Source: Mesorhizobium sp. ZC-5 (lineage in GTDB: Bacteria; Pseudomonadota; Alphaproteobacteria; Rhizobiales; Rhizobiaceae). From it: a stretch of 64,000 nt of DNA. A model generated the notes under the pieces. The model saw only the letters and a program-made list of their open reading frames with translations. It ran no database searches and was not told the DNA's origin. Both the position numbers and the translations under genes were made by a program. Where the stretch lies: assembly GCF_025753855.1 (NCBI RefSeq), contig NZ_JAOWPT010000003.1, positions 434,001 to 498,000 on the forward strand, given 5' to 3'. The first letter of the stretch is position 1; each line of letters opens with the position of its first letter. This document shows, piece by piece, positions 15,733-62,053 of the stretch.

Positions 15733-16413
15733 GTGACCGACGTGATCATCGAACTGAAAAGCGTCGAACGCCATTACGTTCAGGGCGCGCGCAAGCTGAC
15801 GATCCTGAACGGCGCCGACTTCTCGCTGAAGCGCGGCGAGATGGTGGCGCTGGTGGCGCCGTCGGGTGTCGGCAAGTCGACGCTGCTGCACACCGCTGGC
15901 CTGCTGGAAAAGCCCGATGCGGGTGATGTCATCCTGGCGGGCAGGGCCTGCGGCCGGCTCTCCGACGACGAACGCACCGCGATCCGCCGCAACGACATCG
16001 GCTTCGTCTATCAGTTCCACCACCTGCTGCCCGAATTTACCGCGCTCGAAAACATCATGATGCCGCAGCTGGTGCGCGGCCTCAGCGTCGCCGAGGCGCA
16101 GGGACGGGCAGCCCAACTCCTCGACTACATGAAGATCGGCAAGCGGGCGCAGCATCGGCCGTCCGAATTGTCCGGAGGCGAACAGCAGCGGGTTGCCATC
16201 GCGCGCGCCGTCGCCAACGCGCCGCTGGTGCTTCTTGCCGACGAGCCGACCGGCAACCTTGACCCGGTGACCGCGTCCTACGTCTTCGAGGCGCTGGAGG
16301 CGCTGGTGCGCCAGTCCGGCCTTTCAGCGCTGATTGCCACCCACAATCATGACCTTGCCAGCCGCATGGACCGCCGCGTCACGCTGGGCGAAGGAAAAGT
16401 CATTACGCTGTAG
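15733..16413 (+). CDS. lolD: Lipoprotein-releasing ABC transporter ATP-binding protein
   Basis: 226 residues from a GTG one base after the lolC stop. Walker [10 protein letters not shown] (residues 42-50), signature LSGGE (146-150), Walker B VLLADEP (166-172) and the switch His in IATHNHD are all present, so the ATPase should be active. It energises lipoprotein release by the LolC permease. In many relatives dnaE follows; here the next gene is a 28-codon peptide. Confidence 0.96.
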
Positions 16414-16553
16414 CCGACGTTCGGGCTGACCCCGGCAGCAACGGACTGGGGCACGGTCGCCCGGCGCCGGGTCGACCGCGTTGATGCCCGCCCTATCGTG
16501 GTGGCTCCGCTAACCTCTTCTTAACCCTCGCGCCAGCCTCCGGGCCTACTGGA

Positions 16554-16602
16554 TCAAGCTGCGGCTTTGCAGCTTGACGCGTGAACAAAATTAGAACAAA
16601 AT
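16554..16602 (+). promoter_or_regulatory. Candidate promoter with a 9-bp inverted repeat over the -35
   Basis: TTGACG (16574-16579) and CAAAAT (16597-16602) are 17 bases apart, with an AT-rich tract downstream. A perfect inverted repeat TCAAGCTGC (16554-16562) / GCAGCTTGA (16569-16577), spacer 6, overlaps the -35 and could be an operator, or the end hairpin of the lolD transcript. It would serve the 28-codon gene at 16631. Confidence 0.45.
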
Positions 16603-16630
16603 ATAAACATTAAAGGTACAGGAGAGACAA

Positions 16631-16717
16631 ATGACCGATCTGGTTCAGGACGTTGTTTCGATGGTTTGCATGAGCGCATTCCTCATTTCCACCGCCTTGT
16701 GGATTGGCGCACTCTGA
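16631..16717 (+). CDS. 28-residue hydrophobic peptide
   Basis: ATG at 16631 is preceded by CAGGAGAG at ideal spacing, and the frame codes for a single membrane helix (VVSMVCMSAFLISTALWIGAL) after a short acidic head MTDLVQD. It is too short for usual gene finders but has its own candidate promoter. Function is unknown. A GC hairpin without T-run (CTCCGGC 16729-16735 / GCCGGAG 16743-16749) follows. It could act on a membrane partner such as the protease gene downstream; that is only inference from position. Confidence 0.6.
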   Translation: MTDLVQDVVSMVCMSAFLISTALWIGAL

Positions 16718-16808
16718 GGGACGAAACGCTCCGGCAATGATCGCCGGAGGCTGAGCGCCACCGATTTCAGGTTCTCCCGTTAAGGGCTTCTTTCGACAGT
16801 TTTGTTAC

Positions 16809-16831
16809 GGTTCCTCCGTCATGGAGGAACC
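16809..16831 (+). promoter_or_regulatory. Hairpin that covers the Shine-Dalgarno of the next gene
   Basis: GGTTCCTCC (16809-16817) and GGAGGAACC (16823-16831) form a perfect 9-bp stem around GTCAT. The right arm contains GGAGGA, the only good Shine-Dalgarno for the ATG at 16838. A folded RNA would hide the ribosome site, so translation may respond to temperature, a protein or an antisense RNA. Confidence 0.55.
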
Positions 16832-16837
16832 GAGCGG

Positions 16838-18139
16838 ATGTCTCAGATTGCGATCGCAGCGCTGATCGCCGTCAATCTCGGCCTGATCTTTCTGGCCCTC
16901 GCGGCGCCGCTTGGCATCCGCACGGTTCGCAGCGCGGTCGTTGCCAATGCACCGCGCGAACGCGCCTGGCAGGCGCTTTGGCCATTCGGGCGGGATGCAG
17001 GCTGGTCAGCCGAGGTGGTTGCGGCTGAGCCGGTGGACCGTGAGCCTTCCCAGGCCCGGCTGAAGATCGGTTGGGATGACCGGGAAGGCCTGCCGATCGA
17101 ACGACTGGTAGAGCTGGAAGACATCGTCGAGGGCGAGCGTTTTTCGATGCGCATCGTCGATGACAGTTCGCTCGACCCGGCATTCTGGCGGCACTATCGC
17201 GAAAGCGCGACGCTGGTGGACCGCGACGGCGGGACGGAAATCACGCTGACGCAGACCGACCATTATCGCGGCCTGGCGTTTCTGGTCTTCAGGTTCTTCG
17301 CGCTCCGTCGCAAGGCGGCGAAGCTCAAGATCTGGATGGAAACCGGAGAATACCGCAAGGGCGGCGCGTTCGAACGCCCGACAACCCAGATCGCGCTGGC
17401 GGCGCTGTCGACATTCCTGATCTGGCCGCTGTTCGGGCTCACCGCCGGTGGATTTGCGATAGCGGCATGCCTGACCGCGGTCGTTGCATTGCATGAACTG
17501 GGACATCTGGCGGCGTTCCGCCTGATGGGCCACCGCAACGTTCGCATGATCTTCATCCCGCTTCTCGGCGGTATCGCAATCGGCGGACGCCCTTATGACA
17601 GCCGTTTCGAAGTGGCTTTCGTGGCGCTGATGGGGGCAGGCTTTTCCGCTTTCCTGGTGCCACTCGCCATCATGCTGAGTGATTACGCGGCCGCCGCCGA
17701 TTATCGCCCGGCTGCCACACTTCTCGCGGTATTCGCCGGCTGCGCCGCGCTGTTCAACATCGCCAATCTCGTGCCGGTGTGGAAATTCGATGGCGGACAG
17801 GTGCTGCGGCAGCTTTTCTCCAGCCAGATCGGTCTCGCGGTCGCGTCCTTCGTTATGCTGGCGGCTTTCCTTGGCGTTGCCTTCGCCGCGGGCTTTTCCG
17901 GTGGCATGCTCGTCGCCGGCGCAGCCATTTTCGTGGTCCTGAGCCTGATAACCACCGGCAGCGGCGTCAAGCCGCGCCGCGCGCTGAAGCCGATCCGGAC
18001 GGCCGAGAAGGCGGGCATCGCCGCCGCACTGGTGGCGGTTTTTGTCGTCCACGGTTCCGGCCTTTTATGGGCCGCGGAGAAGTGGGCGGCACAGCCGCCG
18101 CCCCTTCCGTCATCCGAGCGGGTCTGTCGCGCCGCTTGA
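16838..18139 (+). CDS. SRPBCC domain fused to an M50 site-2-protease-like membrane domain
   Basis: 433 residues from ATG 16838. Residues 1-28 form a membrane anchor. Residues about 30-165 look like an SRPBCC/START-like ligand domain (VVANAPRERAWQALWPF... TEITLTQTDHYRG). Residues about 185-420 are a multi-helix M50 domain with the zinc motif HELGH (219-223) and NLVPVWKFDGGQ (310-321), which supplies the third ligand. Catalytic residues are intact, so intramembrane proteolysis is expected. Substrate and ligand are unknown. It is convergent with ggt, and its Shine-Dalgarno is in a hairpin. Confidence 0.85.
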   Translation: MSQIAIAALIAVNLGLIFLALAAPLGIRTVRSAVVANAPRERAWQALWPFGRDAGWSAEVVAAEPVDREPSQARLKIGWDDREGLPIERLVELEDIVEGERFSMRIVDDSSLDPAFWRHYRESATLVDRDGGTEITLTQTDHYRGLAFLVFRFFALRRKAAKLKIWMETGEYRKGGAFERPTTQIALAALSTFLIWPLFGLTAGGFAIAACLTAVVALHELGHLAAFRLMGHRNVRMIFIPLLGGIAIGGRPYDSRFEVAFVALMGAGFSAFLVPLAIMLSDYAAAADYRPAATLLAVFAGCAALFNIANLVPVWKFDGGQVLRQLFSSQIGLAVASFVMLAAFLGVAFAAGFSGGMLVAGAAIFVVLSLITTGSGVKPRRALKPIRTAEKAGIAAALVAVFVVHGSGLLWAAEKWAAQPPPLPSSERVCRAA

Positions 18140-45632: not shown

Positions 45633-46640
45633 GTGCCTCGCGAAAATCAACATTATGTACCACAGTTCCTTCTGCGCAATTTTTGCGCAGAAGGAAAATT
45701 GCATATTTTCGACAAGAAGACCGGTCGCGAGTTCTACAGTAACCCAAGAAATGTCATGGGTGAATCGGACTACAATGTAGTCGCTTTAAAAGACAGCTAC
45801 TACATCGATTTTGAATTGCGTTTCACACATATTGAGAATTTAGCAAAGCCGGTATTTGAAGATATCATAAAAGCTCAAAACCTTTCCATTTTGACTCCGG
45901 AAACTACCGCCACGATCTGCTGTTTCTTCGCCATCCAACATGCGCGTTCCAAGGCCTCGCGGGAGCGAATGTCGGACTTAGGAAATGAATTACGCAGGCG
46001 CTTCCCAGATGTGAAAACGAATGATTTGCCGGAATTTTTCAGCGATCAAGAGTACGACAAGTTCATATTTCTGAAGTTTGCGACCGAGAAACTAGCCGAT
46101 CTCGCAGCTCCACTTGTTTCGAAGGTCATGGTTCTCTTAAAGCTCAATTGCGCCGGACAAATCTATATATCCGACAACCCGCTGCTGCTGCACAACCAAC
46201 AGGAATTCGGCCCGTACGGCAATATCGGCCTCGGCGTACCAGGGATCGAAATTTATCATCCGATTTCCCCAGATTTGGTGCTGGGTCTCCTTTGCCCAAC
46301 AATCGGTCTTCGCTTGAAGAAAGCACAGGCAGAGGCATCAAAGAGTCTCAATGATCTCCACCTTGCAGCGTTTCGAAACCCGCAAGGCTCAATTCAGGCC
46401 CAACTTGATCATCTCAAAGAGGTTGAGGAAGACCTCCAACGGGCGCGCCACTATTATTCGATGCTTTTTGAGAAAAGACTCGTTCCTATTTCAAAGGAAA
46501 ACCTACTGTTCTTAAATTCACTGCAACTCCAATCTGCCTATCGTTTCGTCGGCGCTCGTAGAAAAGACTTTGCCTTCGCAAAGCAAGCAATCCGCGAAAA
46601 GCCGCATTGGAAGGATTTTCCTCGCTTTCAGTTTGGATGA
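45633..46640 (+). CDS. DUF4238 family protein, AT-rich
   Basis: 335 residues from GTG 45633, six bases after nrdJ. It begins PRENQHYVPQFLLRNFC, the DUF4238 signature. Later conserved words are ENLAKPVFEDI, FFAIQHARSKASRERM, and YISDNPLLLHNQQ. Function unknown; members are scattered and often mobile. The gene is visibly richer in A and T than its neighbours, with different codon choice, which points to transfer. A perfect 14-bp hairpin lies in its codons 12-22. Repeats follow it directly. Confidence 0.85.
   Translation: MPRENQHYVPQFLLRNFCAEGKLHIFDKKTGREFYSNPRNVMGESDYNVVALKDSYYIDFELRFTHIENLAKPVFEDIIKAQNLSILTPETTATICCFFAIQHARSKASRERMSDLGNELRRRFPDVKTNDLPEFFSDQEYDKFIFLKFATEKLADLAAPLVSKVMVLLKLNCAGQIYISDNPLLLHNQQEFGPYGNIGLGVPGIEIYHPISPDLVLGLLCPTIGLRLKKAQAEASKSLNDLHLAAFRNPQGSIQAQLDHLKEVEEDLQRARHYYSMLFEKRLVPISKENLLFLNSLQLQSAYRFVGARRKDFAFAKQAIREKPHWKDFPRFQFG
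45666..45696 (+). other. 14-bp perfect inverted repeat inside the DUF4238 start region
   Basis: TTCCTTCTGCGCAA (45666-45679) and TTGCGCAGAAGGAA (45683-45696) with a TTT spacer. It sits 40 bp after the nrdJ stop. It may act as an end hairpin of nrdJ mRNA, or a site where the DUF4238 gene joined. Translation runs through it. Confidence 0.65.
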
Positions 46641-62038: not shown

Positions 62039-62053
62039 GAACATAATGAGAAC
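62039..62053. promoter_or_regulatory. LexA (SOS) box of dinB
   Basis: GAAC (62039-62042) - 7 bases - GAAC (62050-62053), that is GTTC-N7-GTTC on the dinB strand. This direct repeat is the established LexA site of alphaproteobacteria. It ends 7 bp from the dinB ATG and is 55 bp from the divergent GNAT gene. Confidence 0.85.

Follow-up and report, generated by a model that had tools for sequence, protein, structure and literature searches.

A Mesorhizobium gene for an SRPBCC-site-2 protease fusion and a candidate start-site-dependent lock on its Shine-Dalgarno sequence

Site-2 proteases are usually tied to regulatory domains of the CBS or PDZ kind. The CBS-containing group is described as being defined by one or more C-terminal CBS domains (PMC11486902). 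A form of control acting on translation is described for the T4 gene I-TevI, where the Shine-Dalgarno sequence (SD) lies in a hairpin and transcripts from a local promoter are too short to form that hairpin, with similar arrangements given for I-TevII, I-TevIII, segB, and mobE of Aeh1 (PMC2988022). Here we analyze a gene in a 64,000-nucleotide stretch of the Mesorhizobium sp. ZC-5 genome (contig NZ_JAOWPT010000003.1, positions 434,001 to 498,000; hereafter the window) that encodes a fusion of an SRPBCC (START-like) domain with an M50 site-2 protease, and whose SD lies in a predicted hairpin overlapped by a promoter-like element (Table 1). The fusion architecture is almost certainly real and that of a conserved family. 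Our best explanation of the locus as a whole, which we hold tentatively and with somewhat less than even confidence, is a START-gated site-2 protease combined with a lock on the SD that depends on where transcription starts.

The two motifs from which the initial annotation recognized an M50 protease, HELGH and NLVPVWKFDGG, are both present, the catalytic motifs are conserved, and a Pfam scan of the fusion protein scores PF02163 at 40.5 bits against a cut-off of 27.2. Sequence and model together place HExxH on a membrane helix, accompanied by NxxPxxxxDG, which is the combination taken here to mark the M50 family. An AlphaFold2 model built with an alignment reached a predicted local distance difference test (pLDDT) score of 86.6, while a single-sequence model was not used (pLDDT 43.9). 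Residues 24-172 of the model adopt the helix-grip fold and match SRPBCC/START structures in a fold comparison, including PYL receptors and ARO/CYC proteins, which bears out the earlier suggestion of such a domain in the N-terminal half; a model lacking this fold there, named in the initial annotation as a refuting result, did not arise. The corresponding Pfam family, PF10604 (Polyketide_cyc2), matches residues 29-144 weakly and below its gathering cut-off (23.2 versus 27.4 bits), and an NCBIfam scan of the protein gave a single weak, irrelevant match. Charge-based topology puts the SRPBCC domain and the active site on the same, cytosolic side, and the last SRPBCC helix, running on towards the following membrane helix, carries a near-invariant cluster (R152, R157, R158, L163, and W166). 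No CBS domain matched in the fusion protein at E<=1 (Pfam) or in nine fusion relatives at E<=0.1, and the C terminus of the model consists of helices rather than a CBS fold. We propose that the fusion protein is an inner-membrane site-2 protease in which the SRPBCC domain would be flanked by an anchor helix at the N terminus and by the protease core, where it would most likely gate or select substrates for intramembrane cleavage and take the regulatory place of the C-terminal CBS domain in SpoIVFB-type enzymes. As an M50 site-2 protease, it would be expected to cleave within the membrane in a zinc-dependent way. That the SRPBCC domain acts as a regulator in some form is, in our judgment, probable, and it may do so by sensing a ligand or lipid.

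The family was surveyed in the ZC-5 genome and 200 relatives (201 genomes, 176 genera). Protease matches at E<=0.001 occur in 50 of these genomes, and 22 are near full length, including one (G059) that lies in two separate pieces. The family set used below comprises 104 loci, after removal of 6 of 110 in which the match fell short of the whole protein. From named genomes, 80 loci were retained out of 105 confirmed ones, and 69 of these 80 records are titled Mesorhizobium.

Ahead of the gene, the initial annotation had placed GGAGGA in the right arm of a 9-bp stem (16809-16831). The SD does lie wholly in that arm, and the stem is one of 10 bp. Folding of a long transcript from the window predicts an unpaired probability of about 0 for the SD. 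Within a 101-nt stretch (16780-16880) the folding z-score is -3.59, with 1 of 200 shuffles as stable. Allowing up to three mismatches, the palindrome of the stem occurs once in the 64-kb window and in none of 100 shuffles. The 6.3-Mb genome has two such sites, the exact one and one with three mismatches; a repeated operator was rejected on the strength of this single, imperfect further site. Perfect short stems are not rare in the window: of 39 inverted repeats listed, the 25 longest include three with perfect stems of 11-14 bp and loops of 3-5 nt. The hairpin is more than a product of chance because its stem sits on the SD and because complementarity to the SD spans the family. Elsewhere in the window, a perfect inverted repeat at 45666-45696 exceeds the SD hairpin in length, with arms of 14 bp and a loop of 3 nt.

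The left arm overlaps a promoter-like element of the pattern TTAAG..TTCTT..TANNNT, which appears in many relatives as TTAA(G)NNNTTCTT followed by the TANNNT box. The TTAA/TANNNT architecture is found in 83 of the 104 leaders by the rule used for the clustered test described below and in 84 by a second rule. The distance from TTAA to TANNNT is 26 or 27 nt in all but one of the 83, and at 37 shifted positions the rule was satisfied by at most 1 of 104. The element also tracks the protease: it precedes the gene in all 69 strict matches found in 696 kb of relatives, and it is present at 7 of 9 loci of sORF28 (a micropeptide gene that lies upstream of the protease in the window) from genomes with the protease and at 0 of 21 from genomes without it; in the two exceptions (G067 and G078), the protease gene is on another contig. 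A -10 box of the form TANNNT places the transcription start about 7 nt downstream. Reading the TANNNT of the element as a -10 box therefore predicts a start near 16818, in the loop of the hairpin. In the loci examined the element is conserved and specific to this gene, and its promoter function and start site are predictions.

Is the pairing of the SD conserved? The initial annotation had named loss of the hairpin in close relatives as the finding that would count against it. The outcome is mixed. Relatives do not have the exact stem, and in several there is hardly any stem or no stem at all, yet on the whole complementarity to the SD persists although the sequence has changed. We compared the pairing of each leader's left part with the SD region of the same leader and with those of other lineages (chimeras). 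Left segments pair more strongly than their own shuffles (0 of 500 shuffles equal them). For 14 lineages picked by eye, natural leaders out-pair chimeras with p 0.0008-0.0043 (0.009-0.022 without the window), and for lineages clustered at 70, 80, and 90% identity p is 0.0002-0.0019 (0.0021-0.0195 without the window). With clusters at 80% protein identity, natural pairs average -9.41 kcal/mol and chimeric pairs -6.77 (p 2e-4; 0.0024 without the window), and omission of the box from the left part leaves p at 0.001 (0.0066 without the window). This clustered test left out the 21 of 104 leaders that lack the TTAA/TANNNT architecture. Across 100 shifted positions at the same loci the mean z was -0.16 (sd 0.98, minimum -2.85), with p<0.05 at 6% of positions, while the leaders gave -3.93, or -3.12 without the window, both beyond all 100 controls. 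When the box was not required, all 31 lineages gave p values of 0.0005, 0.0007, and 0.019 at three arm lengths; the lineage sets of these tests overlap. The window pairs most strongly of 42 leaders scored, and lineages without the element pair the SD more weakly. Complementarity to the SD is a family-wide property, clear in the close half of the family and weak in the distant half.

The initial annotation regarded the SD as locked. This agrees with the model of a long transcript, but is doubtful for ordinary mRNA because part of the left arm belongs to the conserved -10-like box and transcription is predicted to begin in the loop. SD pairing probably concerns read-through transcripts and not the gene's own mRNA. 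In the window and most close relatives, the segment that pairs with the SD would at the same time be the -10 box and discriminator of a gene-specific promoter. As in late genes of phage T4, transcripts reading through from upstream, here from the sORF28 promoter, would carry both arms and be translationally muted, and transcripts from the gene's own promoter, beginning within the loop, would be without the left arm and translatable. The sORF28 promoter, about 240-260 bp before the protease ATG, is a possible source of read-through, and a scan found no terminator-like site between the two. When the modeled RNA began at the predicted start, mean predicted SD accessibility over 14 lineages was 0.44, up from 0.23 (Wilcoxon p 0.011); this increase of 0.21 compares with 0.025 at 37 shifted controls (maximum 0.177). 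Accessibility rose by more than 0.1 in 9 of the 14 lineages, and in the window it went from 0.00 to about 0.4.

Several observations weigh against a START-gated protease with such a lock. On the protein side, PF10604 matched in 4 of 9 relatives scanned, each time below cut-off, and the other 5 gave no match at E<=0.1; one distant member, L025 (L025:1411-2691), has glycine in place of the catalytic aspartate of NxxPxxxxDGG. The -35 side of the element is unlike that of sigma-70 promoters, a promoter scan returned only the sORF28 promoter and not the element, and the ZC-5 genome holds one match to the element and also one to a reversed control pattern. Stem strength varies widely, from -18.1 kcal/mol in the window to -1.5 in L008, and the 42 leaders taken without clustering give a p of only 0.031, a weak result of the sort to be expected with close relatives that have both halves in common. 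On truncation four lineages (L004, L006, L009, and L105) hardly change and L008 reverses. When the lineages are split by whether sORF28 lies upstream, the 15 that have it give p 0.0017, 0.0037, and 0.0595 at the three arm lengths, and the 16 that lack it give 0.0077, 0.022, and 0.049; for the latter, the z of -2.09 at the middle length falls inside the range of 56 shifted controls (minimum -2.33). The element is found in 0 of these 16 lineages by the strict rule and only in L009 and L019 by a looser one. Therefore, the lock does not explain the 16 distant lineages, where a plain throttle on translation fits as well or better.

Such a throttle would be constitutive: transcription would start upstream of the hairpin, every transcript would carry it, and the level of a membrane protease would be kept low. 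It fits SD pairing over 31 lineages, and in the 16 without the element it explains more than the lock does. However, TANNNT, with its near-constant distance from TTAA in 82 of 83 leaders, resembles a -10 box, which would put the start inside the loop, and we consider the throttle improbable. The hairpin could instead lack any role in RNA, with a left arm that is simply -10 box and discriminator and never enters mRNA, and with pairing that arises incidentally where a C/T-rich discriminator faces a G/A-rich SD. In keeping with this idea, the box and its spacing are better conserved than the stem, cross pairings equal natural ones for many Mesorhizobium leaders, the p over the 42 unclustered leaders is only 0.031, and many members are predicted to pair their SD only in part. 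Against it, natural leaders out-pair chimeras across diverged lineages whether or not the window is included, beyond every shifted control, and left segments beat their own shuffles; we regard a hairpin without an RNA role as rather unlikely, though a substantial competitor. An RNA thermometer or ligand-opened switch is suggested by the position of the SD inside a hairpin near the start codon, and opening by temperature had been raised in the initial annotation. In the folding model, the unpaired probability of the SD stays at or below 0.003 at each of ten temperatures from 15 to 70 C, which disfavors a thermometer. The stem is also perfect, no conserved aptamer-like sequence is visible in the leaders, and positions 16400-16950 match nothing in Rfam at E<=1, making a switch of either kind very improbable.

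Two further readings concern the protein. The SRPBCC domain could be no sensor but a substrate adaptor or structural lid by which substrates from the cytosol are brought to the active site. Its placement on the same side as the active site and the near-invariant residues in its last helix both suit this role, while several of the fold-matched structures (PYL receptors and ARO/CYC) bind small molecules, although a shared fold proves no function; the adaptor or lid is quite possible, if short of being the likelier case. Alternatively, the protease could clear the SOS-type micropeptide sORF28 and so end a division checkpoint. sORF28 lies 66-660 nt upstream of the protease in 85 of 104 loci, and 84 of these 85 carry before it the repeat GAAC-N7-GAAC, which we take to be the LexA-type repeat of alphaproteobacteria. 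There is also a described parallel in Bacillus subtilis, where the proteases YlbL and CtpA promote recovery and the small membrane inhibitor YneA accumulates without them (PMC6051672). However, sORF28 is found at E<=1e-6 in 45 of the 201 genomes and the near full-length protease in 22, with only 10 holding both, and same-genus genomes keep sORF28 without the protease. This distribution does not bear out an obligate partnership, and clearance of sORF28 seems to us highly unlikely.

If the START-gated protease with a start-site-dependent lock is correct, a START-like domain on the catalytic side would be a new control of intramembrane proteolysis, and residues 24-172 would offer a defined handle for finding a ligand in rhizobia. 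In the leader, one DNA segment would serve both as -10 box and discriminator and as the arm that silences read-through mRNA, which is directly testable; if this is true, similar locks could be sought behind many internal promoters. The most novel form of the proposal makes this a new START-gated type of site-2 protease with a covarying lock that keeps transcripts read through from an SOS-inducible micropeptide gene from ever yielding protease, which would amount to a switch between transcript isoforms, in the style of T4, on bacterial chromosomes; we consider it doubtful.

Table 1 Positions in the window of the protease gene, its leader, and the upstream neighbor.
Feature	Position	Strand	Details
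Coding sequence, SRPBCC-M50 fusion	16838..18139	+	ATG start, stop included, 433 aa; in relatives an SD-preceded start at or near the matching codon
SRPBCC/START-fold domain, predicted cytosolic	16907..17353	+	Codons of residues 24-172
Multi-pass M50 (site-2 protease) part	17378..18091	+	Codons of residues 181-418
HELGH zinc motif	17492..17506	+	Residues 219-223
NxxPxxxxDGG motif (NLVPVWKFDGG)	17765..17797	+	Residues 310-320
Promoter-like element TTAAGNNNTTCTT...TACGGT	16780..16811	+	-10-like TACGGT at 16806-16811 overlaps left arm of hairpin; predicted start about 16818
Perfect 10-bp stem-loop	16808..16832	+	Arms 16808-16817 and 16823-16832, loop 16818-16822; SD in right arm
Shine-Dalgarno GGAGGA	16823..16828	+	9 nt before ATG; anti-SD duplex -9.3 kcal/mol
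sORF28, 28-aa hydrophobic micropeptide, single-helix by eye	16631..16717	+	Stop included; upstream neighbor of protease
Sigma-70-like promoter of sORF28, TTGACG-N17-CAAAAT	16574..16602	+	From promoter scan
LexA-type direct repeat GAAC-N7-GAAC	16583..16597	+	Inside sORF28 promoter

sORF28 is 28 aa long, as called, in all 85 loci where it precedes the protease, and a TTGAC-N-(T/C)ANNNT promoter pattern stands before it in 76 of them. The GAAC-N7-GAAC repeat also precedes it in 28 of 30 further fetched sORF28 loci, some from the same genomes; of the other two, the open reading frame was not relocated in L131 and the upstream sequence of L138 was too short. Among 384 other genomes sampled from the class, a profile of sORF28 had no match at E<=0.001. 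Caulobacter SidA is described as a 29-aa SOS-induced division inhibitor of the inner membrane (PMC4211646), and sORF28 looks like a Rhizobiaceae counterpart, judging by its predicted features, which makes it a promising observation separate from the protease. A peptide of the SidA type would be under LexA control and would block division through FtsW; the size and the LexA-type box of sORF28 agree with this. A second GAAC-N7-GAAC repeat of LexA type lies at position 62039 of the window.

The gene order proS-lolC-lolD-sORF28-protease-(ggt)-lipB is widely kept in Mesorhizobium-like loci, and in L007 and L009-L022 sORF28 was not seen adjoining the protease. Both other genomes of the same genus lack the protease, with orders of lolD-sORF28-lipB (L115) and sORF28-ggt (L118). 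Therefore, the gene was either gained or lost within the genus. In three loci from other families of the order (L023, L024, and L025), HExxH lies near residue 230 behind a long N-terminal domain; their membership in the fusion family is only probable because the Pfam SRPBCC match is weak in L024 and absent in L023 and L025, and the L025 protein is possibly a non-proteolytic relative. A class-wide search, in which at most four candidates per genome were scored among the matches listed, gave matches at E<=1e-5 in 49 of 385 genomes. Only the query genome matched end to end, and in the other 48, of which 29 fetched loci were inspected, the match covered the M50 or the SRPBCC part. Among 72,556 plasmid records 5 matched, including a 4.6-Mb Shinella record in which the match covers 95% of the protein and coincides with no listed feature. 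The gene of L022 (G059) looks split, with residues 6-270 and 266-426 matched in different frames, and its second piece holds one TGA, perhaps the natural stop. Family f75, with genomes of about 1 Mb, has stand-alone proteins around 175 aa long (L156, L159, and L164) that match the N-terminal half of the fusion; they carry an N-terminal hydrophobic stretch, and the L156 protein scores 97 bits for PF10604.

Compared with known systems, sORF28 resembles SidA in length (28 versus 29 aa), as a small peptide of inner-membrane type, and in its LexA-type operator; the likeness is one of size, peptide type, and box. The SRPBCC/START superfamily (Polyketide_cyc2, AHSA1, PYL receptors, and ARO/CYC) shares its fold with residues 24-172, while the domain here falls below cut-off in Pfam and is built into a membrane protease. 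In the open-licence literature we found no paper linking a site-2 protease with an SRPBCC or START domain, none on a rhizobial intramembrane site-2 protease, no SidA-like SOS small protein for Rhizobium, and no report on long undecoded transcripts carrying a Shine-Dalgarno sequence in bacteria, which is not proof of absence. SpoIVFB and MjS2P, of the CBS-containing M50 group, are the best sequence matches among solved structures and share with the fusion protein the HExxH and NxxPxxxxDG motifs and an active site on the cytosolic side. In contrast to these enzymes, the fusion protein has no CBS domain that we could find, has C-terminal membrane helices instead, and gains an N-terminal anchor and the SRPBCC domain. 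Between the helix that bears the motif and the one after it, its model also shows a beta-hairpin, at the place where a re-entrant loop is described for SpoIVFB and MjS2P (PMC11486902). Relative to the T4 type, the gene is chromosomal and rhizobial, and its start site and repression are predictions from sequence alone. As in that type, its SD lies in a predicted hairpin; transcripts from the promoter-like element, if they start where predicted, would lack the left arm.
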